Virus record (IMG/VR): IMGVR_UViG_3300027985_000627
Location: 1 to 64,000 of that record
Direction: 5' to 3' (one strand)
Length of the DNA stretch: 64,000 nucleotides
From: a virus
Shown: positions 5,562-53,978 of the stretch, piece by piece
Layout of the letters: each line of letters begins with the position of its first letter
Numbering within the stretch: position 1 is the first letter of the stretch
Notes under the pieces: generated by a model
Told to the model about the DNA's origin: nothing
The model's database searches: none
The model's input: only the letters and a program-made list of their open reading frames with translations
Translations under genes and position numbers: made by a program

Positions 5562-5569
5562 GAGGAAAG

Positions 5570-5975: not shown

Positions 5976-5988
5976 CAAGGAGAAAATC

Positions 5989-6372: not shown

Positions 6373-6418
6373 TTCGGTATACATGAGGGGCCGAAAGGCC
6401 CCGAACAGTGGATCGAAC
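6371..6418 (+). other. Nested stem-loop element 2
   Basis: Begins within the stop codon with AGTTCGGTATAC, then the hairpin GGGGCC-GAAA-GGCCCC (6387-6402), and ends GTGGATCGAAC. GTTCG (6372-6376) can pair with CGAAC (6414-6418), while GTTCGG can alternatively pair with CCGAAC (6401-6406), so two exclusive folds exist. Near-copies stand at 7276 and 11328. Confidence 0.7.
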
Positions 6419-6438
6419 TTTAACGAAAAGGAGATTGT

Positions 6439-6606
6439 ATGGGATGGTTCATGTTTTCATTACTTGGAGTAGGAACCTTCACTTTGTTTATGGGAAAATT
6501 CACACTTACGGAATATCTGCTTTTCTCGATCATGATTGAACTTGGATTTTTTGGACAAAACATTCTTAACTACCTTCGAAGCATTGATGGAGGAGGTAGA
6601 GGATGA
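6439..6606 (+). CDS. Small membrane protein (55 aa)
   Basis: ATG at 6439 behind AAAAGGAGATTGT; stop TGA 6604-6606 overlaps the next ATG at 6603. Two hydrophobic stretches (GWFMFSLLGVGTFTLFMG and YLLFSIMIELGFFG) predict a small two-helix membrane protein. Function unknown. Confidence 0.5.
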   Translation: MGWFMFSLLGVGTFTLFMGKFTLTEYLLFSIMIELGFFGQNILNYLRSIDGGGRG

Positions 6607-6803
6607 AAGAACACAAAATGGTTGTGACGATTAGATTCCCGGATGACGTTCCTAAAAGGTTTGCTATGGACTATGTTCGGGAAGCGATCCTTAATTGGAG
6701 AGGACAATTCCATCCAGATGATCCTTTAAATTCTGTAAAGAAAAACTTCGTGAGCGTAGTTGGTTACAACCCTTACGTTCCTAAAAACGACAATTGGTAC
6801 TAA
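6603..6803 (+). CDS. Hypothetical protein
   Basis: 66 residues, start overlapping the previous stop (ATGA), GGAGG upstream. Pattern VTIRFPDDVPKRFAMDYVR suggests one strand and one helix. Not recognised. Confidence 0.55.
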   Translation: MKEHKMVVTIRFPDDVPKRFAMDYVREAILNWRGQFHPDDPLNSVKKNFVSVVGYNPYVPKNDNWY

Positions 6804-6842
6804 ATAACTTTTAAAACAAAACCCTTAACGTAGGAGCATGAA

Positions 6843-7277
6843 ATGCCCAAAACCATTTCGATGTATCAAACTGAGGACGGCAAAATTTTTCAGAACAAAG
6901 AAGAAGCCGAAAAACACGAACAAAGCTCGGAAACCTACAACAAAGTTCGAAGTGTTTTGCGGACATTCAGTGTTATGCCTCTAGTGTACCAAAACACGGT
7001 AGTTGATCTTATCGTGAAAAAGTATCCGAAATTGGTGGACAGTCTTCTTCTGAAAGAAGGAGAAGAAAAGAAAAACCACCGTAACGGGTACAACGATGTC
7101 AAGTTGCTGCTTTCCAAAGACCCGAACAAATACTGGCCTGTTTCGGAGATTCAGGAACGTCTGAATATCTCCTACAGCACTGTGAACAACCACGTGAACA
7201 AACTCCTAAAAGAAGGTCTCATTTCTCGCGCTCAGAAGGGTGTTTACCGAATCAACACTTTGACCAAGAACGTTTAG
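6843..7277 (+). CDS. Winged-helix DNA-binding protein
   Basis: 144 residues. The C-terminal 55 residues (about 83-138) read as a winged helix: a helix VKLLLSKDPN, a helix-turn-helix VSEIQERLNISYSTVNNHV, then NKLLKEGLISR and a wing with KGVYRI. The N-terminal part starts SMYQTEDGKIF-x-NKEEAEKHE, a motif shared by several phage proteins. Likely a transcription regulator of the early genes; target unknown. The gene lies between two copies of the GTTCGGTATAC stem-loop element. Confidence 0.65.
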   Translation: MPKTISMYQTEDGKIFQNKEEAEKHEQSSETYNKVRSVLRTFSVMPLVYQNTVVDLIVKKYPKLVDSLLLKEGEEKKNHRNGYNDVKLLLSKDPNKYWPVSEIQERLNISYSTVNNHVNKLLKEGLISRAQKGVYRINTLTKNV

Positions 7278-7323
7278 TTCGGTATACCAAAGGGGCCGAA
7301 AGGCCCCAAATGGTGGATCGAAC
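7276..7323 (+). other. Nested stem-loop element 3
   Basis: Same layout as the element at 6371: AGTTCGGTATAC overlapping the stop, GGGGCC-GAAA-GGCCCC, then GGTGGATCGAAC. The base changes between copies lie mainly in the loop flanks, not in the two conserved ends. Confidence 0.7.
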
Positions 7324-7343
7324 CTGTAACCTACGAGGTGAGT

Positions 7344-9356
7344 ATGGACTTCAAGTTGTTGAAATCGGCTGTAGCTGGTCAATTCGAAAAGATGAAGAAG
7401 CACAAACTTTTCATAACTGGCACAGACAAAGATGAATTGTGGAATCTGTATCTGGATTCGTTCCCTGAAGGGACGAATTTGATCTACAGAGAACGGCGGG
7501 AGTACGATTGTTCCTGCTGCCGTCAGTTCATCAAGAACATCGGCAGCGTCGTGAACATCATTGACGGCAAGCTTGTCTCCATCTGGGACTGCAAAGTTGA
7601 CAATGAGAACTACCAGACCGTTGTGGATGCTCTTGCTCAGTACGTCAAAAACAAACCTGTTGTCGGTCTGTACTACAACAGCGAAAAGGTTGTCGGCATT
7701 GACAAAAACTTCGAAGACTTGGTTGACGGCATCCAGACCTGGGAACACTTCTTTGTAAACGTTCCCCCGGCTGTCGTCAAAAAGAAAGACGAAATCAACA
7801 GTTCGAAAGGAACTCACACCGATTCTTTCAACGTCCTTAAACGGTCGTTTGAAGAAATCACTTCGGACGCCGCGAAAGAGGTTCTTGATCTTATCGCGCA
7901 GGGCTCTCTGTATCGTGGCGAAGAACACAAGATGTCTGTCCAAACGTTCTTGGATTACAAACGTCCGTACGAGTGTCTTCCCGAAGAAAAGAAAGATTTG
8001 TACGTTTGGACAGTTTCTACTTCTGTTGGAATGAACGTTTCACGAATCAGGAACACAGCAATCGGAACTCTTCTCGTTGATCTTTCTGAAGGCGTCGATC
8101 TTGAGGAGGCTGTGAGAAAGTTCGAACAGGTGGTTGCTCCGATGAACTACAAACGGCCCACTTCGTTGATCTCGCAAAGGATGATCGACAACGCGAAGAA
8201 GACCGTTGAAGAACTCGGACTGACTTCTGCCCTTGAAAGGCGCTTTGCGAATGAGAACGATATTCCGATCAATGACGTTCTCTTCTCGTACAAGACGACG
8301 AAAAGTGCCAGAGGCGGAGACTTGTTCGATGGTCTCCCGACGAAAAAGAAAGAACATAACTTCAAGAACGTTAAGGAAATGAGCATCGAAAAGTTCTTGA
8401 AGGATGTGGTTCCCACTGCTTCTGAGTTGGAAATCTTCATGGAGAATCGGCTTATGCCGAATCTGGTCAGCTTGATTGCTCCTGAAGATCCGACGGCTGA
8501 AAACATGTTCAAGTGGCACAACAAGCTGTCTTGGTCTTACAAAGGCGGTGTGACTGATTCCATCAAGGAGCGTGTCAAGGCTGCTGGTGGAAAGATCGAA
8601 GGTGACGTTTGCATTCGTCTTTCTTGGAACAACTACGACGACTTGGACTTGCATCTTTTCAGCGCCAGCGGTGGAACCCATATTTACTATGCACAAAAAA
8701 GGGATTCTTATACTGGTGCTTGGCTTGACGTTGACATGAACGCTGGAGGTCCTCGTTCACGCACTCCGGTTGAAAACATCACCATAGGAAACCGAAAGCA
8801 CCTCCATGACAAAGAGCATTGGGTAGTTAAAGTCCACCAGTTTGCTCAAAGGGAAAACATCGACGTTGGTTTCGTTGTTCAAGTTGAAACGAAAGACGAT
8901 ATTCGTGAATACGGATACGAAAAACCCGTCAGAGGTACAATTGAAGTTCTTTACTTCTACTACGACAAAAAAGAGGACAAGATCGTCATTAAGGACGTCC
9001 TTCCCGCTTCTTCGGTTCAGAAAGAAGTTTGGGGAATCAAAACCGAAGACTTCGTAAAGGTCAAGAACATCATGCTTTCCCCCAACTACTGGGGAGAACG
9101 TCCGGTTGGAAACAAGCATTATCTCTTTATGCTTGAAGGGTGCAAGAATGAGGAACCTACTCGCGGGTTCTTCAACGAGTACCTCAATCCGATTCTCGAC
9201 AAACACAGAAAGGTTTTCGAGATTCTGGGCGGCAAGCTGACGGTCCCGTACACCGACAATCAGCTTAGTGGAGTCGGGTTCTCTTCGACTTCGCAGAATC
9301 ACTTTCTGGTGCGTGTGTCTGGTTCGTTCAACCGTATCGTTAAAGTAACCATCTAA
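7344..9356 (+). CDS. Large conserved phage protein with a DUF2135-like segment
   Basis: 670 residues from the ATG at 7344, with GAGGTGAG just upstream; an in-frame GTG at 7338 lies within that site. Near residues 410-480 a segment (VCIRLSWNNYDDLDLHLFSA, then LDVDMNAGGPRSRTPVENI) matches the look of DUF2135/YfaP-type beta domains (W-x-x-x-x-DLDLH ... LDVDxNxG). The N-terminal third carries CSCC (about residue 53), perhaps zinc. Together with the next gene this pair recurs in phages. Enzymatic activity unknown. One of the longest early proteins, so probably abundant or multi-domain. Confidence 0.6.
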   Translation: MDFKLLKSAVAGQFEKMKKHKLFITGTDKDELWNLYLDSFPEGTNLIYRERREYDCSCCRQFIKNIGSVVNIIDGKLVSIWDCKVDNENYQTVVDALAQYVKNKPVVGLYYNSEKVVGIDKNFEDLVDGIQTWEHFFVNVPPAVVKKKDEINSSKGTHTDSFNVLKRSFEEITSDAAKEVLDLIAQGSLYRGEEHKMSVQTFLDYKRPYECLPEEKKDLYVWTVSTSVGMNVSRIRNTAIGTLLVDLSEGVDLEEAVRKFEQVVAPMNYKRPTSLISQRMIDNAKKTVEELGLTSALERRFANENDIPINDVLFSYKTTKSARGGDLFDGLPTKKKEHNFKNVKEMSIEKFLKDVVPTASELEIFMENRLMPNLVSLIAPEDPTAENMFKWHNKLSWSYKGGVTDSIKERVKAAGGKIEGDVCIRLSWNNYDDLDLHLFSASGGTHIYYAQKRDSYTGAWLDVDMNAGGPRSRTPVENITIGNRKHLHDKEHWVVKVHQFAQRENIDVGFVVQVETKDDIREYGYEKPVRGTIEVLYFYYDKKEDKIVIKDVLPASSVQKEVWGIKTEDFVKVKNIMLSPNYWGERPVGNKHYLFMLEGCKNEEPTRGFFNEYLNPILDKHRKVFEILGGKLTVPYTDNQLSGVGFSSTSQNHFLVRVSGSFNRIVKVTI

Positions 9357-25089: not shown

Positions 25090-25287
25090 ATGTCTGCTAA
25101 AGCTAAATCCGCTGAAACTGACAACGAGTTTGAAAAGCAATTCACTTGCAAAGCTGGTATCGCTGGTCGCAAGCGCGGACTTACTGGACAAAGGTTAATT
25201 GATTTTATTAACAATCATCGGAAGGACCCTGCTGGTCATCGTGGTCGTCGCTTCTACCAATCCTCCACCTCCATCTTGGAGAAATAA
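25090..25287 (+). CDS. Hypothetical protein
   Basis: 65 residues, AAAGGAGCCAAT upstream. Basic, with CKAGIAGRKRGLTGQRLIDF and a G-H-R-G-R-R-F end. Not recognised; immediately upstream of queD. Confidence 0.5.
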   Translation: MSAKAKSAETDNEFEKQFTCKAGIAGRKRGLTGQRLIDFINNHRKDPAGHRGRRFYQSSTSILEK

Positions 25288-25288
25288 A

Positions 25289-25678
25289 GTGCTTACAGTA
25301 ACCAAACGGTTTCATTTCTGCTACGGGCACCATTTGCCTGGTCATCAAGGTAAGTGCAAAAACTTTCATGGACACAACTGTATATTGGAAGTTACCGTGT
25401 ACAAGAAAGGGTCTTCCAAAAAATCTAGCGAAGAAGAGTTTTATTTGGATCAAGCTATGGTTATGGATTTCGGTGATCTTAAAAAAGTTGTAAATCCGTT
25501 GATCGAGAAACTTGATCACCAAAATATTAATGAGGTTCTGCCTGAAAAGTACCTTCCCTCCACCGCAGAAAACATGTGTTTGTGGTTTTTGGATATGTTG
25601 GTGAAAGAGGGTATCGGTGTCGATAAAATTCGAATTTACGAAACCCCAGATAACTGGGCTACGTGGAGTAGTCGATGA
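25289..25678 (+). CDS. queD: 6-carboxy-tetrahydropterin synthase
   Basis: 129 residues from GTG 25289 (TTGGAG upstream). All QueD landmarks are present: FHFCYGHHLPGH with a zinc His, GKCKNFHGHN with catalytic Cys23 and zinc ligands His27/His29, MVMDFGDLK, LDHQNINE, PSTAENM and RIYETPDNWATW. It converts 7,8-dihydroneopterin triphosphate to 6-carboxy-5,6,7,8-tetrahydropterin, step two of 7-deazaguanine synthesis. Overlaps queE by 4 bases. In phages the pathway supplies modified bases for DNA. Confidence 0.9.
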   Translation: MLTVTKRFHFCYGHHLPGHQGKCKNFHGHNCILEVTVYKKGSSKKSSEEEFYLDQAMVMDFGDLKKVVNPLIEKLDHQNINEVLPEKYLPSTAENMCLWFLDMLVKEGIGVDKIRIYETPDNWATWSSR

Positions 25679-26334
25679 TCGTAAATGAAATTTTTCGATC
25701 CATTGACGGGGAAGCCAACTTCTACGGTCAAGGGATTCTCACTACGTTTATCCGACTTCAAGGATGTAACGTTCGGTGTGCTTTTTGCGACACCATGTAT
25801 TCTCAGGGACCGTATGATAAAGATGGCACGTCCATGTCTATCAACGAGATTTACGAAAAGGTTTGCAAACTCGGAAATGACAAGGTTACCATCACTGGTG
25901 GCGAGCCTTTGTTTCAGTTGGACGATGCAGCCACTTTAGCTCGGAAACTTTTGAGAAGTGGGACGAAAGTAACAATTGAAACAAACGGAACGATCATGAT
26001 TCCGAAAATCGGAAACGTTGGTTGGGTCGTTGATTTCAAGTTGCCTTCTTCTGGTGTGACTGATAAAATGTGTATGGAAATTTTTCCTGAACTGGGAGAA
26101 AAGGACATTATTAAGTTTGTAATTTCTGACAAATCGGACTTTGACAAAGCCATGCATGTTATTGCTAGCGGTGCTTTGGGAATTACCAAACCCAGAAACA
26201 AAAGGCCTAGGTTTGCATTCTCTCCCATTCTGCATCGTTTGGAACCAGTCAAATTGTTGAATTGGATGATGATGGCTGATTTGCAGGATTCGTTTCTAAG
26301 TGTTCAGGTACACAAACTTTTGAGCGTCAAATAA
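25675..26334 (+). CDS. queE: 7-carboxy-7-deazaguanine synthase
   Basis: 219 residues, ATGA overlap with queD. FIRLQGCNVRCAFCDTMYS carries CxxxCxxC (Cys31, 35, 38) for the radical SAM 4Fe-4S cluster and is a classic QueE start (EIFRSIDGEANFYG). VTITGGEPLFQ supplies the SAM-binding motif. It rearranges carboxy-tetrahydropterin to 7-carboxy-7-deazaguanine (CDG). No queC follows here, so CDG may be the last free base this phage makes itself. Confidence 0.9.
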   Translation: MIVNEIFRSIDGEANFYGQGILTTFIRLQGCNVRCAFCDTMYSQGPYDKDGTSMSINEIYEKVCKLGNDKVTITGGEPLFQLDDAATLARKLLRSGTKVTIETNGTIMIPKIGNVGWVVDFKLPSSGVTDKMCMEIFPELGEKDIIKFVISDKSDFDKAMHVIASGALGITKPRNKRPRFAFSPILHRLEPVKLLNWMMMADLQDSFLSVQVHKLLSVK

Positions 26335-26409
26335 TTTTCACGGAAATATGGCTAAGGTTCGATATCATAAGAACGAAAAACAATTTAACCACCCTTTGGA
26401 GGGAATGTC

Positions 26410-27027
26410 ATGAGCGATGGAATCAACATGAAGGAACTGAAGCAGGCCGTCACCGAACTTAACGAAGCTGGTGTTCTCGACAAGAAAATCAAGATTGTCG
26501 GCGTTGGCAAGGATGATCTGGCTGCCGCGTTTGAGGAAGCTGTCAACGGTCTGGACGATGAGAAGGCTGAAAAGCTGACCGCTTTCACCATTGATTTCTT
26601 CAACAACAACTTCGGTGAGGATGAGAATACCGAAGAAGGCGGCGTCGAAGCTTCGGATGAAGAAGAAACTGACGGTGAGGAATCTGAAGGTGAGGAAGAG
26701 CCGGAAGAAGAATCTGAGCCGGAAGAAGAAGAAAAGCCGAAGAAGGCTGCGAAGAAAGAAAAGGCCAAGAAGGCTCCCAAGGAAAAGAAAGAGAAGAAGT
26801 CGAAGGAGCCGGTCGAGAAGTCTCGTTACGGACACACTGTCGGCTCTCAAGCGGCCTTGATTGACGACGCTATTTTTGAAGGCGGCACGATGCAGGAGAT
26901 GATGGAAGCTACTGGTCTGTCTAAGGCTCGCATCAAATCCCATATTTACCATCTTGAAAAGAAGAAAGGCATTGTCATCAAGACCACCGGCGAAGGTGAC
27001 AAAACGGTTTTCAAAGCCAAGAAGTAA
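26410..27027 (+). CDS. Acidic-linker protein with C-terminal winged helix
   Basis: 205 residues behind GGAGGGAATGTC. A helical N-terminus (1-70) is followed by an extreme Glu-rich stretch (about 80-115), a Lys-rich stretch (115-140), and a C-terminal winged helix (TMQEMMEATGLSKARIKSHI, YHLEKKKGIVIKT). Probably a DNA-binding regulator or architectural protein. It sits between queE and folE and ends at a strong terminator, so it may control the deazaguanine genes; this is inference. Confidence 0.55.
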   Translation: MSDGINMKELKQAVTELNEAGVLDKKIKIVGVGKDDLAAAFEEAVNGLDDEKAEKLTAFTIDFFNNNFGEDENTEEGGVEASDEEETDGEESEGEEEPEEESEPEEEEKPKKAAKKEKAKKAPKEKKEKKSKEPVEKSRYGHTVGSQAALIDDAIFEGGTMQEMMEATGLSKARIKSHIYHLEKKKGIVIKTTGEGDKTVFKAKK

Positions 27028-27052
27028 CACCAAGTCACATTGAAATGTCATA

Positions 27053-27078
27053 GGGGAGGGTAACACCTCCCCTTTTTT
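27053..27078 (+). terminator. Intrinsic terminator
   Basis: GGGGAGG (27053-27059) and CCTCCCC (27066-27072) form a 7-bp GC-rich stem followed by six T. Placed between the acidic winged-helix gene and folE. Confidence 0.8.
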
Positions 27079-27087
27079 GGAGGAATT

Positions 27088-27663
27088 ATGGACCTTAATA
27101 AAATGGCTGAGGGTTTCAGAACCCTCATGGAAGCTTCTGACCTTGATTTGAATGATCCCAATTTTTGCGGCACTCCTATGCGAGTGGCCAGAATGTTCGA
27201 AAACTTCTTTGAAGGAACAAAACCTGAAGCCGAAGAAGAAATAGAAAAATACCTTTCTGTAACATTCCCTGCTGAATACAAAGAGCTTATCACGTTCCTC
27301 AATATATCTTGTTGGAGCATGTGCCCGCATCATTTTCTTCCTGTGAAGTACAACGTGTCTGTCGGTTATATTCCGAATGAAAGCGTTCTCGGTGCTTCGA
27401 AGATTCCTCGGCTTGTGATCTTGCTTGGAAAAAGACCTGTTCTTCAAGAACAGTTTACGAAGGACATAACGTCTTATATAAATAGATTTGCTAAACCTGC
27501 TGGCGTCATTGCTGTGGTTGAAGGGCGCCACATGTGTATGCAATCACGTGGTGTTAAGACAACTGCAACGATGAACACAGCCTCTTTGTCTGGATGTTTT
27601 GAAACACAGCATGAGACTAGAAAAGAGTTTTATGACCTTATAGCAAGGGGTTCCACGTTATGA
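27088..27663 (+). CDS. folE: GTP cyclohydrolase I
   Basis: 191 residues, TTGGAGGAATT upstream. CWSMCPHHFLP holds zinc ligands Cys79 and His82; GRHMCMQSRGV supplies the second zinc Cys and the conserved RGV; SKIPRLV and QEQFTKDI are also standard. It opens GTP to 7,8-dihydroneopterin triphosphate, the substrate of QueD, so it starts the deazaguanine pathway. Length is slightly under the bacterial norm of about 220. Confidence 0.92.
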   Translation: MDLNKMAEGFRTLMEASDLDLNDPNFCGTPMRVARMFENFFEGTKPEAEEEIEKYLSVTFPAEYKELITFLNISCWSMCPHHFLPVKYNVSVGYIPNESVLGASKIPRLVILLGKRPVLQEQFTKDITSYINRFAKPAGVIAVVEGRHMCMQSRGVKTTATMNTASLSGCFETQHETRKEFYDLIARGSTL

Positions 27664-28010
27664 GCAAAGAAAGAGTATTCGTCATCGTCAAGAGTGCTTT
27701 CGAAGCGGTACATAGCTGGCCCGAGTGTCCTATAGACGAGGTAGCTTTTCTCAGACACCCTCACAGACATATCTTTCATGTAACCGTGAAAATCGAAGTT
27801 TCCCACGATGACCGAGACGTTGAGTTCATTGTCTTCAAACGCAAGGTAAACGAATACTTGGAAGCTTTCTATTCTGGTAAAGACATCGGAAGGGAGTCTT
27901 GCGAAATGATAGCCAAAGAAATCATTTCCTACTTTTCGGAAAAGTATTCTATCCATTCTGTTTCAGTGTTCGAAGACAACGAAAACGGAGCGGAGGTGGT
28001 TTGTGGCTAA
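27660..28010 (+). CDS. QueD-like tunnel-fold protein lacking the catalytic Cys motif
   Basis: 116 residues, ATGA overlap with folE. FEAVHSWPECP and LRHPHRHIFHVTV are reminiscent of the QueD/PTPS zinc site (His18, His35, His37), but the C-x3-HGH of the true QueD at 25289 is replaced by AFLRHPHRH, so the nucleophilic Cys is not in its normal place; Cys23 might substitute. SHDDRDVEF and the C-terminal acidic end also differ. I infer a zinc enzyme acting on a pterin or deazaguanine intermediate. Overlaps the glycosyltransferase gene by 8 bases. Confidence 0.65.
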   Translation: MSKERVFVIVKSAFEAVHSWPECPIDEVAFLRHPHRHIFHVTVKIEVSHDDRDVEFIVFKRKVNEYLEAFYSGKDIGRESCEMIAKEIISYFSEKYSIHSVSVFEDNENGAEVVCG

Positions 28011-41451: not shown

Positions 41452-41760
41452 ATGGAACGGGTCGTTGAAACTATTATTGGAAAAATTCCTGATTGTGAGC
41501 CTAGAATCCTTCAATTTGAAGTAAAAAAGAATTGTGAAATTCTGTGTGTTCGCGCAACGGATTATACCGACGTGAACAACTGTGTAGCTTTGGATATCGA
41601 ATGTTCTCCGAATGAAACTGAAAAAGTCGGCAAAAGTATTCGATTTGTGAAGCCGAACGAGCAATTTGCCAAAACAGTCAATGATAAGTTCCTGGGTTTA
41701 GTCCGATCATGGCAAACCATCTATTACGTTTACGAGGTAAGGTGCAAAAATGATTGCTGA
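41452..41760 (+). CDS. Hypothetical protein
   Basis: 102 residues; weak ribosome site (GTGGGG). Mixed strands with several cysteines (IPDCEPR, KNCEILCVRATD, NNCVALDIECS). Overlaps thyX by 11 bases and contains its ribosome site. Not recognised. Confidence 0.5.
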   Translation: MERVVETIIGKIPDCEPRILQFEVKKNCEILCVRATDYTDVNNCVALDIECSPNETEKVGKSIRFVKPNEQFAKTVNDKFLGLVRSWQTIYYVYEVRCKNDC

Positions 41761-43387
41761 TCTGAAAGTTGAATTACTGGCTAAGACTCCGAATATGGAA
41801 GAGTTAGCTTTATCGGCAATGAAACAGTGCTATTCCAATGGATATGCTGGTGACATATACGTTGGTATGCTTATGTGCAAAACTTTCGATCCTAAAATGC
41901 TTCTTTCTGTCATGTCTTCTGGTCATGTCAGCCCCATCGAACATGGATCGTTTACGTTTGCCATTGCTGGTGTTTCAAGAGCATTGACCCATCAACTTGT
42001 TCGGCATCGTCTGGCGTCGTACTGCTTATCTGGTGATTCTAAAATAGTTTCCTACAACTCCGTAAAGAGTAGGAGTTCCCGTGTTCGCACAATACGAGAA
42101 TTGTATGAAATGAGTAAAAACCCCAAAAGGAACGGTCCATTTTCTTTAATACGAATCAGAAGTGTAGATGAAAATGGAATAATAGTTTCAAATAAAATTG
42201 TGAAAGTATTTAAAACAGGGAAAAAACCAGTTTACAAAGTCACCACTGTTAGCGGTAGATGTATAAAGTCTACTAAAGAACACCGATTTAAAACAAAGGA
42301 AGGGTTCGTAAGACTGAGTGAACTATCTGTTGGTGATACTGTAATTGTCAACGGTCTACCTTGTTATAAAAATAAAGAATGGTTAGAAGATCAGTACCTA
42401 AACAAGAACAAAACCAGAGATGAAATCGCTGAATTAGCTGGTGTTAGCAACCCTTGCATTGGAAATTGGGTGAAGAGGTTTAAATTAGTTAAACCTAGAT
42501 CGGCGTACCCCAATAGAAAACCGGGACACGGAGTACCGGGAATGTTTTCTGAAAAAGTGAAAAAGAAATTAAGCGAACAAAAGTTAGGAAGCAAGAACCC
42601 AGCTTGGCTTGGTGATGGTGCTTCTGAAAATGCAGGAAGACTACGTGCCCAAAAAATGTATCCTGCTTGTGAGTGTGAAACTTGTGGAGCCAAAACCAGA
42701 TTTGAACGACACCACATTGATGGAAACACCAAAAATAACGACCGCAGTAACATTTTAGTTTTATGCTCGGCTTGCCATCGTAGTCACCACAATCTGAATG
42801 GCGCTGTTTTAGCCGTACATTCTGATAAAATAGTTTCCATAGAGTACGTGGGAGAAGAAGAAACATACGATTTGGAAGTTGGAAATCCACACAATTACGT
42901 AGCAGATGGATTCGTTGTTCATAATAGCCAACAATCACAACGTTACGTTGACGCTAAAAACGTTAGTTACATCATGCCACCCGAAATCGCCAAAATACCC
43001 GAAGCCAGAAGACTATTCGAATCGTTCATGGACACTTCAGCTTTGGTTTACGAAGACTTGCAGGAAATTCTCATCAAGAACGGTAGAAGAAAAACCGCTA
43101 ATGAAGACGCCAGATTTGTTTTGCCGAATGCTTGTGAAACAAGGATCGTGGTCACAATGAATTGCCGATCTTTGATTCACTTCTTTTCTCTTCGTTGCTG
43201 CAAACGTGCCCAATGGGAAATCCAAGCAATGGCCAACCAGATGCTTGAGATTTGCAAAGCGAATGCTCCTACTATTTTCTCTTCGGCTGGGGCTAATTGT
43301 GATCTTTTAGGATACTGTCCTGAAGGAGAACGATCTTGTGGAAAAAAGAAAACTTTAGCAGAATTACAAGGAGTAAAAAATGATTAG
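41750..43387 (+). CDS. thyX: Flavin-dependent thymidylate synthase precursor with intein
   Basis: 545-residue precursor. Extein 1 (1-91) ends HQLVRHRLASY and extein 2 begins SQQSQRYVDAKN; joined they give the ThyX motif RHR-x7-S-QRY exactly. The intein (residues 92-392) interrupts that motif, so enzyme activity requires splicing. The spliced product is 244 residues, normal for ThyX, with a cysteine-bearing end (LLGYCPEGERSCG). ThyX methylates dUMP to dTMP using folate and FADH2. The phage thus makes dTMP independently of host ThyA. Confidence 0.92.
   Translation: MIADLKVELLAKTPNMEELALSAMKQCYSNGYAGDIYVGMLMCKTFDPKMLLSVMSSGHVSPIEHGSFTFAIAGVSRALTHQLVRHRLASYCLSGDSKIVSYNSVKSRSSRVRTIRELYEMSKNPKRNGPFSLIRIRSVDENGIIVSNKIVKVFKTGKKPVYKVTTVSGRCIKSTKEHRFKTKEGFVRLSELSVGDTVIVNGLPCYKNKEWLEDQYLNKNKTRDEIAELAGVSNPCIGNWVKRFKLVKPRSAYPNRKPGHGVPGMFSEKVKKKLSEQKLGSKNPAWLGDGASENAGRLRAQKMYPACECETCGAKTRFERHHIDGNTKNNDRSNILVLCSACHRSHHNLNGAVLAVHSDKIVSIEYVGEEETYDLEVGNPHNYVADGFVVHNSQQSQRYVDAKNVSYIMPPEIAKIPEARRLFESFMDTSALVYEDLQEILIKNGRRKTANEDARFVLPNACETRIVVTMNCRSLIHFFSLRCCKRAQWEIQAMANQMLEICKANAPTIFSSAGANCDLLGYCPEGERSCGKKKTLAELQGVKND
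42023..42925 (+). mobile_element. Intein with HNH homing endonuclease in thyX
   Basis: 301 codons beginning CLSGDSKIV (splicing Cys1) and ending FVVHN before Ser+1, the canonical C...HN/S junctions. The splicing block B is VSGRCIKSTKEHRF and the C-terminal block is NPHNYVADGFVVHN. Internally there is a helix-turn-helix (KTRDEIAELAGVSNPCIGNW), a NUMOD3-like segment (SEKVKKKLSEQKLGSKNPAW) and an HNH nuclease CETCGAKTRFERHHIDG ... CSACHRSHH. All parts look intact, so splicing and homing may both be active. Confidence 0.9.
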
Positions 43388-46535: not shown

Positions 46536-46703
46536 ATGACAGACGCGCAGTACGCTCTTTGGTCCAATCCTGATCGCTGCATCCGTTGTAAGTTTTTGAA
46601 AAGAACCAACAAGCTGATTCGTTACTGTTGGTGTTTGAAGTACAAATGCGAAGCCTGGGTTGTTATGGGGTGTATAAAAAGGATTGGACCAGCTACTGCG
46701 TAG
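46536..46703 (+). CDS. Small Cys-rich protein (55 aa)
   Basis: ATG 46536, stop TAG 46701-46703. C-I-R-C-K-F-L and Y-C-W-C-L-K-Y-K-C give a compact zinc site. Weak ribosome site, but the stop contains the ribosome site of the next gene (TAGGAGG), which suggests real translation. Confidence 0.45.
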   Translation: MTDAQYALWSNPDRCIRCKFLKRTNKLIRYCWCLKYKCEAWVVMGCIKRIGPATA

Positions 46704-46711
46704 GAGGTTCC

Positions 46712-47758
46712 ATGTTTAAAAAATTGACGCTCAAGAACTTTCAAAACCACACCAAATCAACTCTTCTGTTTCATCCTGGTGTAAATGTCATATCAGGTCC
46801 TTCTGACAACGGTAAATCCTCTATCATTCGAGCTTTGCGACTTGTGCTTGAAAATAAAGCGCAAGGTGATTCATACAGAAAGATTGGTACCGATAAAACT
46901 TCTGTAAAACTGGAATTAGACGGTCACACCATTGAGCGGATTCGATCCAAAAAAGAAAACGAGTACGTACTAGATGGACAATCCTTCAAAGCTGTGCGTT
47001 CATCTGTTCCAGATGAAATTTCTGGAATAATAAATTTATCTCCGTCAAGTCTTCAAAGTCAATTCGATCCGTACTTTCTCCTTTCTGATTCACCTGGTGA
47101 AGTTGCTAAGAAGCTAAATGAGCTTGCCGACATTTCCATAATCGACAAGTCCATCAAAGCTATCAACTCCAAAGTGGCTTCTGCCAAGTCAGAAATCAAG
47201 TTTACCCAGAAAGCTGTAGCCGACATTGAAGATGAATTACTAGCTTTCGATGGATTGAACGAGATTGAAAAGCTGGTAAACGAGATTACTGAGCTTCATG
47301 ATGATACACAAGAGCTTGTCAGAGACATAGCGGATTTACAAGGACAAGTCGATGCCGCTGACGTTTCAGAGAAAAGCATAGCAGAGATCGTTCTTTTTCT
47401 GAAACATGAAACGGAAGTCAATTCTGCCGAGAAGAAACTCGCTGAGGTGACCAATTTAAAGGCTGACATTGAAATGGTTTCTGGTTTCGTCGCTTACTCG
47501 GAACAGTTCAAATTCGACATCAATCGGTTCAACGAAATTTTGAAATTGGAACCTGAAGTAACCAAAGCCGATGAAATGTTCGACCTGTACGATTACAAAC
47601 TAACCGAACTCACACTGCTTCAGAAATCCATACTTATGACAGAAGAAATTACGGATCAACTATCTTTGTGTGATACAACGAATTTGGAAGATGAATTAAA
47701 GGAACTTTGGAAAGAAAACCCTGTTTGTCCTGTTTGTGAACAAAAGGTGAGAGTATGA
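46712..47758 (+). CDS. SbcC/Rad50/gp46 N-terminal half, ending at zinc hook
   Basis: 348 residues from ATG 46712 (TAGGAGGTTC upstream). Starts FKKLTLKNFQNHTKSTLLF and has Walker A ISGPSDNGKSSIIR (about 28-41), the Rad50-type ATPase N-lobe, then a coiled coil from about 150 to 330. It ends ENPVCPVCEQKVRV: the CxxC zinc hook (about 339-342) is six residues from the C-terminus. The second coil, signature motif and Walker B are missing here and are found in the gene at 48911. ATGA overlap with the nuclease gene. Confidence 0.85.
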   Translation: MFKKLTLKNFQNHTKSTLLFHPGVNVISGPSDNGKSSIIRALRLVLENKAQGDSYRKIGTDKTSVKLELDGHTIERIRSKKENEYVLDGQSFKAVRSSVPDEISGIINLSPSSLQSQFDPYFLLSDSPGEVAKKLNELADISIIDKSIKAINSKVASAKSEIKFTQKAVADIEDELLAFDGLNEIEKLVNEITELHDDTQELVRDIADLQGQVDAADVSEKSIAEIVLFLKHETEVNSAEKKLAEVTNLKADIEMVSGFVAYSEQFKFDINRFNEILKLEPEVTKADEMFDLYDYKLTELTLLQKSILMTEEITDQLSLCDTTNLEDELKELWKENPVCPVCEQKVRV

Positions 47759-48681
47759 AATTCCTTTGCACAGGTGACTGGCACATCAGGAAAAACAACC
47801 CTGTAAACCGAACGGACGTTTATTATGATGGTTTATTTAGCAAGCTCCGATTCATCTACGACCTCGCACTTGACACCATTGACTGCTGGGGAATACTGCA
47901 ACCAGGAGACTTCTTCGACCGACATGACCTGCCCTACGGAGTTGTGGAGAGGACGATCCGTCATCATTCAGATACAGAACGAATCACACCTGTCAAACTC
48001 GCAGCCTGCTTCGGTCAACATGACCAGCGTTTCCACACCTCGGATAAAACAAACACACCACTTGGTGTGTTTATGGCAGGAACAACAAGCTCTTTCATCC
48101 TTGAAAAAGAGCCGTTGGAGATTCCTAGATTTGAAGAATCGCCGATTCATATCTACGGGTCTTCATGGGGAGAAGATATTCCCGAAATCCAAGATTCGAG
48201 CGCATTTAACATCCTGGTCACGCACCGGATGGTCACGAAGAACGGCCCGCTTTGGTCCGAACAAGAGCATTACGAAGAAGCGGACATACTGCTTAAAAAA
48301 CTCGATTTCAACCTCATAGTATGCGGAGACAACCACAATGGATTCGTACATCGTTATCGTTCTCGGTATCTCATTAATTGTGGTTCTCTTATGCGCAGCA
48401 CACTTGACCAAATGGATCATCGTCCATTTGTTGTCTTATTTGATACAGAAACGAAAAAACCAGAAACCGTCTATATTCCCGTAATACCTATCCATGAAGT
48501 CATGAACATGGAAAAAGTCGAAAAAGAGAAAGAAAAAAATGAGCAAATGGATTTGTTCATATCCAAATTGAAAATGAGTAATGATCGGAGTTTAGACTTC
48601 AAATCCAATTTGCAAAATTTCTTGGATGAAAACAAAATTTCACCTTCTGTTAAACAGATCATTTCGGAGGTCATGTCATGA
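47755..48681 (+). CDS. SbcD/Mre11/gp47-type nuclease
   Basis: 308 residues. Phosphoesterase motifs in order: LCTGDWHIRK, LQPGDFFDRHD, ACFGQHDQRF (normally GNHD/E; Gln replaces Asn), ILVTHRMV and VCGDNHNGF. The metal-binding Asp and His residues are kept. With its ATPase partner it should trim DNA ends and hairpins and feed recombination-dependent replication. Encoded between the two halves of the ATPase. Confidence 0.85.
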   Translation: MKFLCTGDWHIRKNNPVNRTDVYYDGLFSKLRFIYDLALDTIDCWGILQPGDFFDRHDLPYGVVERTIRHHSDTERITPVKLAACFGQHDQRFHTSDKTNTPLGVFMAGTTSSFILEKEPLEIPRFEESPIHIYGSSWGEDIPEIQDSSAFNILVTHRMVTKNGPLWSEQEHYEEADILLKKLDFNLIVCGDNHNGFVHRYRSRYLINCGSLMRSTLDQMDHRPFVVLFDTETKKPETVYIPVIPIHEVMNMEKVEKEKEKNEQMDLFISKLKMSNDRSLDFKSNLQNFLDENKISPSVKQIISEVMS

Positions 48682-48917
48682 AAGATGCTGCAAAAAGAAT
48701 TTCAGCTTTGAAAGATAAAATCGAAGAAGCAAAAAACAAGAAGGCTAGGCTAGAAGGACGACTTGAATCAGCGATGTCTGATTTGAAAAAAGAATTTGGA
48801 ATAAAATCCTTGAAAGAAGCCAAAGTTACTTTGGAAAAGTGGAGAAAAGACTTAGGCATTCAAGAAAAAGAACTTGAAGAAAAACTGGATGAAATAGAGG
48901 AGAAATTCGGATGGTAA
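48678..48917 (+). CDS. Coiled-coil protein between nuclease and ATPase C-half
   Basis: 79 residues, all charged helix (AKRISALKDKIEEAKNKKAR, KEAKVTLEKWRKDLGIQEKE), ATGA overlap with the nuclease gene. It could be a detached piece of Rad50-type coil or a clip joining the two ATPase halves. No cysteines. Confidence 0.6.
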   Translation: MKDAAKRISALKDKIEEAKNKKARLEGRLESAMSDLKKEFGIKSLKEAKVTLEKWRKDLGIQEKELEEKLDEIEEKFGW

Positions 48918-49513
48918 AAGATCGGATAGCAGAACTCAAAAAGACTCTAGCTAGTGCGAAAGCTACGGTTAAAGTTCTCAAAGACAAAAAGAAAGCTACG
49001 CTGAAAAAGATTTCCGACTTAGAAAATACTCTCAGTGACACGGAGAAAGCAAGAGAAATCATTTTGCTTGTTGGTCGTGACACACAGCAAATGTTAGAAA
49101 TAAAAGTCAGTGGTTTGGTTACGCTTGCTTTGGAAGCTGTCTTTCCTGATCCATATGAGTTTAAAGTAGTGTTTGAAGAACGCAGAAATTCCACTGAAGC
49201 CGATTTATTCTTTTGCAAGAACGACGATTTGTTCAAACCTCTGGATTCTTCTGGAGGAGGAGCTATCGACATTGCTTCATTTGCTCTACGTGTGTCTGAT
49301 TGGAAGCTACGTGGAACGAGAAACGTTTTGATTATGGACGAACCGTTTCGAAATCTTAGCGCCGATTTGCAACCCAAAGCCAGTGAAATGCTTCATCGGA
49401 TAAGTTCTGACCTTGGGTTGCAAATTATTATGGTTTCGCATCAAGAGGGTGTTAATGAGGAATGTGATCGGCTGTTCTCTGTTAAGAACGGGGAAACTAC
49501 TCAGGTTTGGTAA
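48911..49513 (+). CDS. SbcC/Rad50/gp46 C-terminal half
   Basis: 200 residues. A short coil (IAELKKTLASAKATVKVLKD) leads into the C-lobe: signature motif LDSSGGGAIDIASFALRVS, Walker B NVLIMDEPFRNLS, and H-loop MVSHQEGV. These complement the Walker A protein at 46712. No CxxC is present. Starts inside the previous gene's end (GAGGAG upstream). Its stop touches the stop of the opposing gene. Confidence 0.85.
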   Translation: MVKDRIAELKKTLASAKATVKVLKDKKKATLKKISDLENTLSDTEKAREIILLVGRDTQQMLEIKVSGLVTLALEAVFPDPYEFKVVFEERRNSTEADLFFCKNDDLFKPLDSSGGGAIDIASFALRVSDWKLRGTRNVLIMDEPFRNLSADLQPKASEMLHRISSDLGLQIIMVSHQEGVNEECDRLFSVKNGETTQVW

Positions 49514-50020
49514 TTACTTAGGGACAGCTTTGTAAGCTGCTTCGAGGACTTTAAGAAGACCATTGGTGTTATGGTATAAATAAAGGAAATAAAGAAAAGA
49601 CGGTACGCATATAACAGAAATGAACCACAAAATCTTTTTAACGGTTTTAAGATCATCTCCAAGTTTTTTAACGTCACCAAAAGCAGCAAGTTTCGCATCA
49701 AGAGCTTCAATGGCTTCCGTCAAAACAGTTTTAGCATTATCCTCATCCGCTTCCATCGTTGTAGCATGTCTACCAGAGCATGTTTCATCATGTTCTTCAA
49801 TCGTTTTCAAAAACTCTTCCCGCATATTACCAACTGAATCTCGGACAAAATCTTTTAAAGATTGCCGAGTGGGCTCCGCTTTAGCCAAATCTGCAATACG
49901 ATCAACTTGAACTGCCATACTCGAAACGTTATCTTGAACACCCTTCATGCCGTCTAAAACTTGCACAAGCATGGATTTGAACATATCGAGAAGGATTTTT
50001 ACGAATTCATTCTCTCCCAT
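49514..50020 (-). CDS. Membrane-anchored coiled-coil protein coupled to REC-PAS
   Basis: 168 residues from the start codon at 50020; AGGAGG lies 9 bases upstream, inside the end of the REC-PAS gene, and the two overlap by 14 bases. A long soluble helical part (about 1-125; NVSSMAVQVDRIADLAKAEP, TEAIEALDAKLAAFGDVKKL) precedes a single transmembrane segment ILWFISVICVPSFLYFLYLY and a 20-residue tail. The tight coupling suggests a complex with the REC-PAS protein. Function unknown. The stop abuts the + strand SbcC C-half gene. Confidence 0.65.
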   Translation of the reverse strand: MGENEFVKILLDMFKSMLVQVLDGMKGVQDNVSSMAVQVDRIADLAKAEPTRQSLKDFVRDSVGNMREEFLKTIEEHDETCSGRHATTMEADEDNAKTVLTEAIEALDAKLAAFGDVKKLGDDLKTVKKILWFISVICVPSFLYFLYLYHNTNGLLKVLEAAYKAVPK

Positions 50021-51011
50021 CTCGTAAAGCCTCCTGAATATCATTCCAGTTTTTTAAAACGCTGTTAGAAGTGCCTTCATTGGCTTTTTTAGCTGCTATC
50101 ATTTCTTCGGCTTCATCTATGGTTTTTTCCAAAGCCGCAATTTTTGTCTTTGCGTAGTCTTCCGATATCTTAATTTCTTTTTTAACGTTTGACAAGAATT
50201 TCTTCATGGAGTCAGCAACATCCATGAACTGGTGGTAAAATTGCGTCTTGTCTTCACCAACACTTTGAATTTCGAGAAGGTCTCCGTTGTCATCGAATAG
50301 CCCAACTTTTCTCCAAGCTACCCAGTATTTGTTACGATGACGAAATTCCGATCCATAAACCCAAGGTGTTTTGGGTGTCAACTTGTTTATATTTTTCCTG
50401 GCTAATTCGCGATACTCAGGGTCAATGAAATCAAACATATTTAAACCAACAAGGTTTTCGTATGTTGTGTCGAACGCATCGCATATGGTCTTGTTGACAA
50501 AGGTGATCGTTCCATCAGGCTTGTGTCTGCAAATCCATTCAGGTGAAATGTTGACTACAGATTCGTACAAGTTTTTGGCTTTACGAAGCTCATTGTTCAT
50601 TTCAGTGAGGGTAGATAAGGTCTGTTCTAATTCTACCTGATTTTTGCACCTAACAATGGCTGATTTAATGTTGTGCGCCAATGATTTAAATTCCCAAGTT
50701 TTCTTAAAAAAATTATCAGCTCCTTCTTCTACAGCTTGCAGACCAATTTCTTCTTCATCCTCTCCAGAAAGAATTATAACAGGAGTATGCGGACAGACCG
50801 ATTTGATTATATGAAGAGTTTCTATTCCTCGGGAATCAGGAAGATTCAGGTCCAAAAGAACCGCATCAAAGCAACCTTCGCATAAAAGAACTTCTGCCCT
50901 GTGGATACTTTCCACAGGTGTAACGGAAAAGTCAGAAGACTTTTCTAAAATCCTTTTGATAACAGTCTGAAAACAAGTGTCATCTTCAACGTGTAAAATA
51001 GTGTAACACAT
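50007..51011 (-). CDS. Response-regulator receiver plus PAS protein
   Basis: 334 residues. Residues 1-120 are a complete receiver domain: ILHVEDDTCF (Asp10/11), AVLLDLNLPDSRG (phospho-acceptor Asp54), PVIILSGEDE (Ser82) and GADNFFKKT (Lys104). A coiled linker follows, then a PAS domain (about 146-260): YESVVNISPEWICRHKPDG, FVNKTICDAF, VGLNMFDFIDPEYR, FRHRNKYWVAWRK. The C-terminal 70 residues are coiled coil. No DNA-binding or kinase output domain. REC-PAS proteins are bacterial signalling parts; one in a phage late operon is unusual. Confidence 0.85.
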   Translation of the reverse strand: MCYTILHVEDDTCFQTVIKRILEKSSDFSVTPVESIHRAEVLLCEGCFDAVLLDLNLPDSRGIETLHIIKSVCPHTPVIILSGEDEEEIGLQAVEEGADNFFKKTWEFKSLAHNIKSAIVRCKNQVELEQTLSTLTEMNNELRKAKNLYESVVNISPEWICRHKPDGTITFVNKTICDAFDTTYENLVGLNMFDFIDPEYRELARKNINKLTPKTPWVYGSEFRHRNKYWVAWRKVGLFDDNGDLLEIQSVGEDKTQFYHQFMDVADSMKKFLSNVKKEIKISEDYAKTKIAALEKTIDEAEEMIAAKKANEGTSNSVLKNWNDIQEALRDGRE

Positions 51012-51042: not shown

Positions 51043-51387
51043 TTATTCGGAAGAATCAACTAGTGCCGATCCCTTTGAAAATAATTTCCTAGCTATTTCC
51101 GATTGCTCATCGTAGCATTTCTTTGCTTTCTTCCAAAGTTCACTTGTGGCTTTTATAACTTTGTGGTTGTAACCTAAAGCCCAAAGGTTGTCAGGGTGTG
51201 AAATGTATAGTTCTCGATTTATTTTCAAAAGTTCAATTTCTGGAATATCCGGACATTTACTGTAGCTGTACGTTTTCTTCAGTTGCAGGAATTGCGTGAG
51301 TTCTGGATTTGGTTTCGGACTGCATGACATCACCATTGTACCAATCAATCCAATTAGCAGAAGTTTCTTTATCAACGCCGCCTTCAT
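51043..51387 (-). CDS. Outer-membrane spanin subunit (o-spanin), putative
   Basis: 114 residues from the ATG at 51387, with AAGGAG 6 bases upstream. KAALIKKLLLIGLIGTMVMSC is a lipoprotein signal with acylated Cys near residue 22, followed by a Pro-rich start (SPKPNPE) and a helical mature part. It begins inside the i-spanin gene in another frame (131-base overlap), the classic Rz/Rz1-type layout. The pair fuses inner and outer membranes at lysis. Confidence 0.7.
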   Translation of the reverse strand: MKAALIKKLLLIGLIGTMVMSCSPKPNPELTQFLQLKKTYSYSKCPDIPEIELLKINRELYISHPDNLWALGYNHKVIKATSELWKKAKKCYDEQSEIARKLFSKGSALVDSSE

Positions 51388-51808
51388 TTTTAACTCCTTC
51401 AAGGTTTATGCATTCACGTTTTCTAAGAACCCACTGAAGATCATTCAAATCCTTAAGAAGAGCCGTATAGTTCTTCTGCATTTCTTCAAAAGACGTACTC
51501 AACATCGTATTTTTCATTTCAAGATCGGAAATCGTCTTGTCCTGCTCATCCAAAGCTTGTTTGTATTGTATCTCATTTGCTTTGTATCGTTCGATATTCT
51601 TTTCCAAGAAATTTATTTTATCCATAAGATCATTTTTTGTTTTTTCATGAAGGTACTTTTCGGCTGACAAAGATGATTCCAAACTAGTAACTTTGTACAT
51701 GTGCCAACTAAAAAGACCAATAAGAGAAAGAAACAAAACAACGATCAAACCGAAAGAAATTTTCGAACCTAAATCACCAGAGATGAATCCAAGTATACTT
51801 GATAACAT
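51257..51808 (-). CDS. Inner-membrane spanin subunit (i-spanin), putative
   Basis: 183 residues from the ATG at 51808 (GGAG AATAAA upstream). A transmembrane segment near the N-terminus (FGLIVVLFLSLIGLFSWHMY) is followed by a periplasmic coiled coil (LESSLSAEKYLHEKTKNDLM through LSTSFEEMQKNYTALLKDLN). Topology and partner gene fit an Rz-type i-spanin. Slightly longer than lambda Rz. Confidence 0.72.
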   Translation of the reverse strand: MLSSILGFISGDLGSKISFGLIVVLFLSLIGLFSWHMYKVTSLESSLSAEKYLHEKTKNDLMDKINFLEKNIERYKANEIQYKQALDEQDKTISDLEMKNTMLSTSFEEMQKNYTALLKDLNDLQWVLRKRECINLEGVKNEGGVDKETSANWIDWYNGDVMQSETKSRTHAIPATEENVQLQ

Positions 51809-51809
51809 T

Positions 51810-52136
51810 TTATTCTCCAGATTGCTCGTCTTTTGGTTTTTTATCACCACCAAACAATGGGGCTTTTTTCAAAATGTTGTACGTTATGGCTGAAGTATAA
51901 CCAAGCTCTACAAATCTAGCAAAATACTGGTTTGGTTCTTTAAAAGCAAATGTCAAACCTAAACCAATGAAAAACCAAAAAGACAACCTGCCTAAAGAAA
52001 CACCACCTTTTTCACAAAAAAGTGGAGTTAGATCGTACTCACTTTTCCAGATGTACGTCACTACGAGAGCGTAGGTCACGTAGATCAGTATGGGTCCTGA
52101 ATTAGTCAAGATAAAAAATATGATCGGCTTTAGCAT
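51810..52136 (-). CDS. Putative holin
   Basis: 108 residues with a first membrane helix IIFFILTNSGPILIYVTYAL, a second near LGRLSFWFFIGLGLTFAF, possibly a third near VELGYTSAITYNIL, and a charged tail (KKPKDEQSGE). Size, topology and its place between endolysin and spanins suggest a holin. Family not identifiable by eye. Confidence 0.55.
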   Translation of the reverse strand: MLKPIIFFILTNSGPILIYVTYALVVTYIWKSEYDLTPLFCEKGGVSLGRLSFWFFIGLGLTFAFKEPNQYFARFVELGYTSAITYNILKKAPLFGGDKKPKDEQSGE

Positions 52137-52272: not shown

Positions 52273-53004
52273 TTACGGTCTCCCGAAAACCTCAAATAAG
52301 GCTTTCCAAGTTGCTGAACCAACGATACCATCAGGGACTAAATCATGGTCCATCTGAAAAATTACGACCTGGTTGTAAGTGATCTGTCCGAAAACACCGT
52401 CTGCTTTCAATCCAAATACAGTTTGTAGCCAAGAAACATCCTGGCCACGAATCGCTTTTCTGATAATACGAGAACCAGGAGCATACGGCATAGCGACCTG
52501 TTGTTTTTCAATGGACTTGAAATCTTCGATTCTGTTATTCACCGGAACACTGTACGCAGTGTGTTCGTGGCCAATACCAAGTTCCCCTCGATAGTCGAAA
52601 ACTGGACAAGCTTTGGCAGAAACTTCACAATGACCATGCCAGGTTAAAGTCCCAGGTCCAAAAGCGTTTTCAATACCTTTAACCAGGGTATGTAGCGTCT
52701 CAAACTGCATAGCGTTAAATTGTTCAACGTAAAGACCGTCTAAGCACATGGCGATGGTCCTTGAGTTATTACCAGCCTGTGCTACAGGGTTCTCTTCGAT
52801 GTTTCTTCCCTTCAAAAGTGTGCCTTGACAGTCAATGAGAAAATGGTATCCTATGTTATGTCCGTTCTTATCAGCCGAAAATTCTCTTTTCTTATGCCAA
52901 TCATTGACAGCCACAAGAAGGTTATCACCTACAAGGTCTTGACGAGGGTATGCAGTACAATGTATGAAAACCCGTTCTATCCGTCTGGCAGGTTTGTCAA
53001 ACAT
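52273..53004 (-). CDS. Endolysin: N-acetylmuramoyl-L-alanine amidase with PG-binding domain
   Basis: 243 residues from the ATG at 53004 (GGAGATCGT upstream). Amidase_2 motifs: VFIHCTAYP (zinc His), NIGYHFLID, AQAGNNSRTIAMCLDG, and LTWHGHCEVSAKACPVFD (zinc His/Cys region). The C-terminal 70 residues form a PG_binding_1 repeat (GQDVSWLQTVFGLKADGVFG, VVIFQMDHDLVPDGIVG). Cuts the amide bond between muramic acid and the peptide stem. No export signal, so it needs the holin. Confidence 0.9.
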   Translation of the reverse strand: MFDKPARRIERVFIHCTAYPRQDLVGDNLLVAVNDWHKKREFSADKNGHNIGYHFLIDCQGTLLKGRNIEENPVAQAGNNSRTIAMCLDGLYVEQFNAMQFETLHTLVKGIENAFGPGTLTWHGHCEVSAKACPVFDYRGELGIGHEHTAYSVPVNNRIEDFKSIEKQQVAMPYAPGSRIIRKAIRGQDVSWLQTVFGLKADGVFGQITYNQVVIFQMDHDLVPDGIVGSATWKALFEVFGRP

Positions 53005-53012
53005 ACGATCTC

Positions 53013-53978
53013 CTATTTCCCCAATTTGTAAGTTGACCAGAAAATATCTGGATATCGGAATAAAGTAGTTTCCGTAGTGGCACAATCAGGCGACCACGAT
53101 TTCCACTCATCCATATTGTAAAACAATCCGGCAGTTCTGAAAAGACTTCCAGCCCAATTGTTAGAAGTTGGAATATGGAAATCGCTACCAGCAGACCATA
53201 TGCGCTGTTGCAACCATCCTAGTGGGCCCCACAGCTTTTTATAAGGAAACCTCTTAGGCCAGTTTTGATCCTTGCAATAGTACCAATATTTTCGTATTAC
53301 CGGGTAGAGTTTTTCAGCCAGTATCTCGTGCATCATTGCCGCTCTAAGTGTTGGCGTAATGTAAAAACTCATGTACGACATACAGTAGTTATTCCTATAA
53401 GCCTCAGTCCATAAATCACCTTCTTCAACAAACCAGAACCTCTTTGTTGAATTCTGAAGATGAGTCACGAACCCGTCACCCTCAGTGGTTAGATTGGCTA
53501 GCATACCGAGATAAGCGTAGACCATCATACGTCCAAGTCTTCCCCATGCTCCCCAATTACCTCTGGAACCCCAATTTCTAGCATTTATGATAGCATCACA
53601 AGCGGGTAGGTACGTGTTCACGGCCCAAACCGACACATCACATCCGCACATGGCGGCAGCTTCAAATATGCGCTGACCTTTGTAAACCAAAGTTAAAGCA
53701 CCCTCTAAATTACCGTAACCAGTATTAGAACTACACCAAGAACTAATAGCCTGATTAGCACGACCAGTATATCCAAGACCAAGCACTTCAGCTTGTGCAT
53801 ATACAAGTGGAGCGGCCGTTCCATTTTCTAGTGGTAATTTTTCTTGTGTAGATACTTCAGTATTATCGTAATTTGGAGTAATTGTAACAACTCCCATTTG
53901 ACTCCAATGACCATTTACAGAGTATTCCATCTCGTAGTTCGAAAGAAATAAATTTAAGGAATCTAGTTGATTTTTCAC
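53013..53978 (-). CDS. Tail-associated protein, possible polysaccharide lyase
   Basis: 321 residues from GTG at 53978 (GGAG upstream). Helical and aromatic, with NARNWGSRGNWGAWGRLGRM and THLQNSTKRFWF segments like the alpha/alpha-barrel of alginate-lyase-type proteins, which phages use as tail depolymerases. A starting strand domain (VNGHWSQMGVVTITPNYDN) may dock it. The lyase idea rests on residue pattern and place among fibre genes; it may be purely structural. Confidence 0.45.
   Translation of the reverse strand: MKNQLDSLNLFLSNYEMEYSVNGHWSQMGVVTITPNYDNTEVSTQEKLPLENGTAAPLVYAQAEVLGLGYTGRANQAISSWCSSNTGYGNLEGALTLVYKGQRIFEAAAMCGCDVSVWAVNTYLPACDAIINARNWGSRGNWGAWGRLGRMMVYAYLGMLANLTTEGDGFVTHLQNSTKRFWFVEEGDLWTEAYRNNYCMSYMSFYITPTLRAAMMHEILAEKLYPVIRKYWYYCKDQNWPKRFPYKKLWGPLGWLQQRIWSAGSDFHIPTSNNWAGSLFRTAGLFYNMDEWKSWSPDCATTETTLFRYPDIFWSTYKLGK

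Follow-up and report, generated by a model that had tools for sequence, protein, structure and literature searches.

A receiver-PAS protein without an output domain at the end of a phage lysis gene run, and receiver genes in the same genome part of three distant relatives

An uncultured phage, known from an 87,318-bp IMG/VR virus record whose first 64 kb (64,000 nucleotides) are hereafter called the window, encodes in its lysis region a protein made of a receiver domain (REC) and a PAS domain. The active site of the receiver is intact, the protein has neither kinase nor output domains, its gene is translationally coupled to that of a membrane protein, and related phages have receivers in the corresponding genome part. 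Control of lysis by a host kinase acting through this protein is the leading but unproven hypothesis (probability about 0.38), with a phosphate decoy or passenger cargo almost equally likely.

Results and discussion

A receiver-PAS protein with a conventional active site

The 334-aa protein consists of a receiver (about residues 5-115), a PAS domain (about 147-257) and a charged C-terminal helix (about 258-330). The receiver matches Pfam Response_reg (2.3e-20) over residues 5-115, corresponding to positions 1-110 of the 111 in the model, and the PAS domain matches PAS_9 (1.2e-7) over residues 164-257, with PAS_9, PAS_3 and PAS_4 all exceeding their curated cut-offs. A functional receiver is defined by five active-site residues, namely two acidic residues, an aspartate, a serine or threonine, and a lysine (PMC12632262). 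When aligned with solved receivers, NtrC1 among them, the window protein shows all five (E9/D10, D54, S82 and K104), and, as judged from sequence, this confirms that the predicted active site is intact. An earlier note on this DNA had read the acidic pair as D10/D11, which the NtrC1 alignment corrects to E9/D10; its other phosphorylation residues and its view of the receiver as intact are upheld, and its open reading frames, strand and coordinates for this gene and the adjoining one are correct. Threonine follows K104, where proline is usual. After the receiver there is only the PAS domain: no DNA-binding domain was found there, as the note had stated, and the protein contains no DHp, HATPase, GGDEF, HD-GYP or other enzymatic output domain. 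Lacking DHp and HATPase_c, it is not classed as a hybrid histidine kinase. Heptad periodicity in the C-terminal helix is not significant (48 of 500 shuffles scored as high), and structure predictions run without an alignment reached mean pLDDT values of 41 and 47.

No relatives of the exact REC-PAS gene were found in viral collections at the sensitivity used, nor any homologue of the pair that it forms with the adjoining coil-TM gene by single-sequence searches of cultured phages, IMG/VR and GTDB genomes. Among 147 genomes from the class of a Desulfobacterales metagenome-assembled genome (MAG; see below), the best cellular matches correspond to portions of larger sensors, with 37% identity over the PAS domain and 29% to a REC-PAS protein with HD-GYP, the closest types being PAS-GGDEF proteins, PAS-HATPase-REC hybrid kinases and REC-PAS-HD-GYP proteins. 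By its domains, the phage protein looks like a host sensor minus its output, and no donor was found among these 147 genomes. Such a REC-PAS arrangement minus the kinase core resembles a truncated host sensor, and, together with the replacement of proline by threonine after K104, it might be taken for a decaying remnant of a hybrid sensor kinase that is being lost. We consider this very unlikely, as the 334-codon frame is open and has a good ribosome site, all receiver residues are kept, and the downstream gene is coupled.

Source of the phosphate

HATPase_c was found neither in the genome of the window phage nor in 17 large kin, and the control matched in 14 of 14 genomes. A phage-encoded cognate kinase is ruled out by this absence, and the host would therefore have to supply any phosphate. 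A relative of the phage terminase (TerL) occurs in MAG contigs of Desulfobacterales, 'Desantisbacteria' and 'Mollicutes', which gives a weak host hint only, because the binning of phage contigs is unreliable; the Desulfobacterales MAG is very rich in receivers (82 matches). An intact receiver with no output and no cognate kinase, in a phage whose host hint points to so receiver-rich a genome, is also what one would see if the protein were a phosphate decoy, that is, an output-less receiver that drains or blocks host histidine kinases late in infection and leaves the lysis proteins untouched, with the outcome that host surface or stress responses may be altered, e.g. in superinfection exclusion. 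PIT4 of phage LSL4, which binds several host histidine kinases, offers a precedent (PMC10714779). However, PIT4 is an early gene (PMC10714779), and a decoy would be expected to be expressed early and not from the end of the late strand; nor does a decoy explain why four phages have their receivers next to membrane genes, or why one of these receivers is a pseudo-receiver (see below). On balance we regard interference with host kinases as nearly as likely as control of lysis.

The REC-PAS gene lies at the end of a lysis gene run

The REC-PAS gene and the gene of a 168-aa single-TM protein terminate a run of endolysin, small-membrane-protein and Rz/Rz1-like genes on the same strand (Table 1). 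The earlier note had listed endolysin, holin and spanins as neighbours; the endolysin is the only firm identification, the Rz-like match is weak, and neither the holin candidate nor the Rz1-like lipoprotein has a family match. The same note had the genes read together, which accords with their common strand and close spacing; since promoter and terminator scans returned matches at the level of shuffled sequences, we infer operon membership from strand and spacing. The stop of the REC-PAS gene ends at 50007 and the ATG of the coil-TM gene is at 50020, an overlap of 14 nt, and AGGAGG stands 8 nt before this ATG within the REC-PAS frame; the overlap and a ribosome site inside the upstream gene had been described in the note. 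The overlap and the strong Shine-Dalgarno sequence indicate that the REC-PAS gene is translationally coupled to the TM gene.

Table 1. Features of the lysis region of the window and single-TM genes of kin phages without a receiver
Feature	Position	Strand	Evidence or remark
SbcC-like C-terminal ATPase half	48911..49513	+	PHROG 15167, 4.2e-24; converges on late strand; landmark for finding kin
Helical single-TM protein, 168 aa; late membrane protein	49514..50020	-	TCSGRH motif upstream of TM; short tail
REC-PAS-helix protein, 334 aa	50007..51011	-	Response_reg, PAS_9, active-site alignment; GAGG preceding ATG
Probable outer-membrane lipoprotein (o-spanin/Rz1-like)	51043..51402	-	Signal-like N-terminus ending in Cys; partly embedded in 3' end of i-spanin gene
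Probable i-spanin (Rz-like), N-terminal TM then coil	51257..51853	-	PHROG 739 Rz-like spanin, weak (E 1.1e-3)
Small hydrophobic protein, holin candidate by position only	51810..52136	-	Hydrophobic segments slightly below usual threshold
Endolysin, N-acetylmuramoyl-L-alanine amidase with peptidoglycan-binding domain	52273..53025 (start approximate)	-	Amidase_2 2.5e-8; PG_binding_1 5.3e-10; PHROG 822 1.3e-24
Helical single-TM gene of REC-free kin	L098 4861-5364
Helical single-TM gene of REC-free kin	L112 12138-12518
Helical single-TM gene of REC-free kin	L124 12800-13126
Helical single-TM gene of REC-free kin	L178 10473-10829		Between tail gene and spanin-like lipoprotein gene

The SbcC-C gene that converges on the late strand is conserved in six large kin and at about 80 IMG/VR loci. 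In the window, the SbcC-like protein is split over 46628-49513 (plus strand) into N-terminal, short coil and C-terminal frames with an SbcD-like gene between them; in kin, too, the C-terminal part is a gene of its own. Elsewhere on the plus strand, two thymidylate-synthase parts of a ThyX frame at 41750-43387 enclose an HNH endonuclease domain, probably an intein, and QueD/QueE/FolE-like genes of the 7-deazaguanine pathway were seen by eye at 25199-28010.

Receivers recur in the same genome part of kin phages

We collected kin via the terminase (alignment A1) and via SbcC-C (alignment A2), each with about 80 IMG/VR records; they are mostly 45-52% identical in TerL, and the terminase has no match in the annotated phage collection. 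The Response_reg search covered 117 kin virus records (40 + 50 + 27) with 4.3 Mb in total and some redundancy left; 12 of these records reach 80 kb or more. It returned only three further RECs, in G006 (154 aa), G026 (147 aa) and G049 (148 aa), all of them receiver-only genes. Each lies on the strand converging with SbcC-C, 1.2 to 4.5 kb from its end (0.5 kb in the window), among membrane and lysis genes of the late strand, so the assignment of the receiver to a late or lysis region in the earlier note holds beyond the window. With the window supplying the hypothesis and the other three records its test, the chance that three of three RECs fall in one 4.5-kb stretch of a genome of 88 kb is about 1e-4 with strand ignored. 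This figure presupposes independent placement, and it speaks to clustering at one site and not to function.

In G006 the receiver gene is followed after 3 nt by that of a 154-aa helical single-TM protein, then by genes for a secreted HNH-type protein and a GH108 endolysin. In G049 it directly abuts the gene of a 56-aa single-TM protein, after which come the gene of an unassigned 166-aa protein, whose His/Asp spacing resembles that of M15 peptidases by eye only, and then one that is lipoprotein-like. The G026 receiver gene shares an overlap with the end of a hydrophobic 131-aa gene; next come a lipoprotein-like and a two-TM-like gene, with no endolysin seen in the cluster. A single-TM gene thus stands directly after the receiver in the window and in two of the three kin (G006 and G049; gap 0-3 nt). 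The earlier note had named missing conservation of the pair in relatives as a refutation, and the outcome is mixed: sequence searches found no homologue of either member of the exact REC-PAS/TM pair, but those two phages share with the window a late cassette in which a single-TM gene comes straight after a receiver. Two observations on these records stand apart from the receivers: beside the late cassette of G006 there are a YVDD reverse-transcriptase-like frame and a small companion gene (L099 6644-7692, minus strand), by eye a diversity-generating retroelement; and the end of the G026 record consists of strongly repetitive, low-complexity coding sequence (L213, about 5200-8850), a tail or fibre gene by eye. 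G026 is probably a complete genome, as its record has a 127-bp terminal overlap.

The three kin receivers are 24-26% identical to that of the window, which is the background level for unrelated receivers, and the PAS domain is found in the window protein only among the four. All five receiver residues are kept in G049 and G026. G006 has E27/Q28 at the acidic pair, as read from the register of the Pfam match, and is hence a pseudo-receiver by the published definition (PMC12632262); with glutamine at its second acidic position, it speaks against a shared mechanism based on phosphorylation. The four REC phages lie scattered over the SbcC tree, requiring four changes, at least two of which are forced by well supported branches, and their exact placement is unsure because three of the tips have long branches. 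This scatter fits repeated acquisition and an old acquisition with many losses alike, and the two cannot be told apart; it is compatible with repeated recruitment to one place.

The same scatter and low identity, together with slot contents that differ between kin and nearest cellular matches that are pieces of larger sensors, would also be expected if the 3' end of the late strand, where it converges with the SbcC genes, were a permissive slot and REC-PAS a captured fragment of a host sensor, with incidental neighbours. Random sampling of host domains should, however, yield many domain types; instead, receivers recur and keep their active-site residues in three of four cases, and in G006 and G049 they lie inside the cassette and not at its far end. 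We rate passenger cargo as nearly as likely as control of lysis; the late strand may just end in a site that tolerates insertions.

Receiver-profile scans of IMG/VR turned up other RECs (a 629-aa sensor, a prophage flanked by a host kinase, and a plasmid-like contig), none beside lysis genes. Most REC matches in the 'phages' collection were set aside as apparent bacterial contamination (OmpR, BaeR, NtrC and similar proteins on bacterial-sized or unannotated records).

The membrane neighbour is a common late gene

The 168-aa protein has one clear TM segment (KD 2.17, at about residues 130-148 counted from the start at 50020), in line with the single membrane anchor described earlier; the long coil described with it has only modest heptad periodicity in the soluble part (13 of 500 shuffles as high). 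No family above chance was found for it in Pfam, PHROGs or NCBIfam, and no holin, XhlA or spanin match. Kin devoid of REC genes also have helical single-TM genes in their late-strand region (examples in Table 1), several of which carry a C-x2/3-H/C motif before the TM. No significant match was found among the coil-TM proteins of the window, G006 and G009, and between the window and G006 proteins one pair gave an E-value of 0.027, which is not significant. Since comparable genes are present in REC-free kin and homology among the REC-adjacent proteins is not detectable, the suggestion that the membrane protein is a dedicated partner of the receiver is rejected. We conclude that the coil-TM gene is one of the common late membrane genes in this group of phages and did not arrive with the receiver. 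Its occurrence in REC-free kin is nevertheless compatible with the putative role of its product as a target of the receiver.

A possible route from host phosphorylation to lysis

According to the leading hypothesis, the receiver would be expressed late, together with the lysis genes, and a host histidine kinase or a small phosphodonor would phosphorylate it on D54. As it has no output domain, REC-PAS would then act by protein-protein contact, presumably through the PAS domain and the helical C-terminus; the likeliest target would be the adjacent inner-membrane late protein, here the 168-aa single-TM protein, and the timing of lysis would become dependent on the state of the host. Several observations speak against this model. 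The coil-TM type of protein needs no receiver and occurs without one in many kin, and its role as lysis effector is putative; and in G026 the neighbour after the receiver is a lipoprotein, in a cluster without a visible endolysin. For phosphorylation-gated lysis as a shared mechanism, the REC-free coil-TM genes and the G006 pseudo-receiver are the main points against. Accepting a wider proposal, that environmental phages have repeatedly recruited host-type receivers into the lysis or late membrane cluster and that two-component signalling gates lysis as a phosphorylation-dependent clock, seems to us improbable at present.

Comparison with known receiver proteins

Receivers are already known in phages, from PHROG 731, the Bhz63 pair and the cREC domain of jumbo phages. 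PHROG 731, a family of phage receiver-domain proteins, matches the receiver part of the window protein (2.3e-22) and the G026 receiver (1.7e-22). It covers the receiver stretch only (match 3-132 of 227) and has no assigned function, whereas the window protein adds the PAS domain and the C-terminal helix. Cellular REC-PAS sensors, hybrid histidine kinases and REC-PAS-HD-GYP proteins (such as a 459-aa protein in L204) share the REC-PAS order, with 29-37% identity over parts, but bear output modules (HATPase, HD-GYP, GGDEF) that the phage protein lacks. Stenotrophomonas phage vB_SmaS_Bhz63 (OR797046) likewise encodes a receiver protein; this is a 239-aa PhoP-like regulator beside a kinase-like protein in a region of nucleic-acid genes, whereas the window gene lies in a lysis region and has no kinase and no DNA-binding domain. 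The Bhz63 genes (L217 5998-7544), a PhoP-like response regulator and then a gene annotated as kinase superfamily domain, are apparently a whole two-component pair. The cREC domain of jumbo phages is a divergent receiver-like family tied to NAD/ADP-ribose enzymes (PMC7824862), while the window receiver is conventional by Pfam. In phage N4, the lysis regulator and pinholin gp62/gp63 provide a late regulator on the cytoplasmic side of the holin, linked to lysis inhibition (PMC12642591). The 'Receiver domain' of gp63 was rejected as a parallel, since it is a patch of gp63 and not a REC domain; the naming is a coincidence, and the comparison, made by description, implies no homology. A limited literature search, with most subscription papers outside its reach, turned up no paper describing the repeated occurrence of receiver genes in phage lysis clusters.

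Significance

The usual account of lysis timing invokes holin accumulation and membrane energy. The presence of receivers in the same genome part of three distant relatives suggests that a host signal would influence the end of the infection. If this is true, a receiver in the late membrane or lysis cluster of several phages only distantly related would be a direct wire from a host phosphorelay to the lysis decision, for which D54 offers a one-residue test; and even if the protein were a decoy, it would mark a place in the genome where phages acquire host signalling domains.
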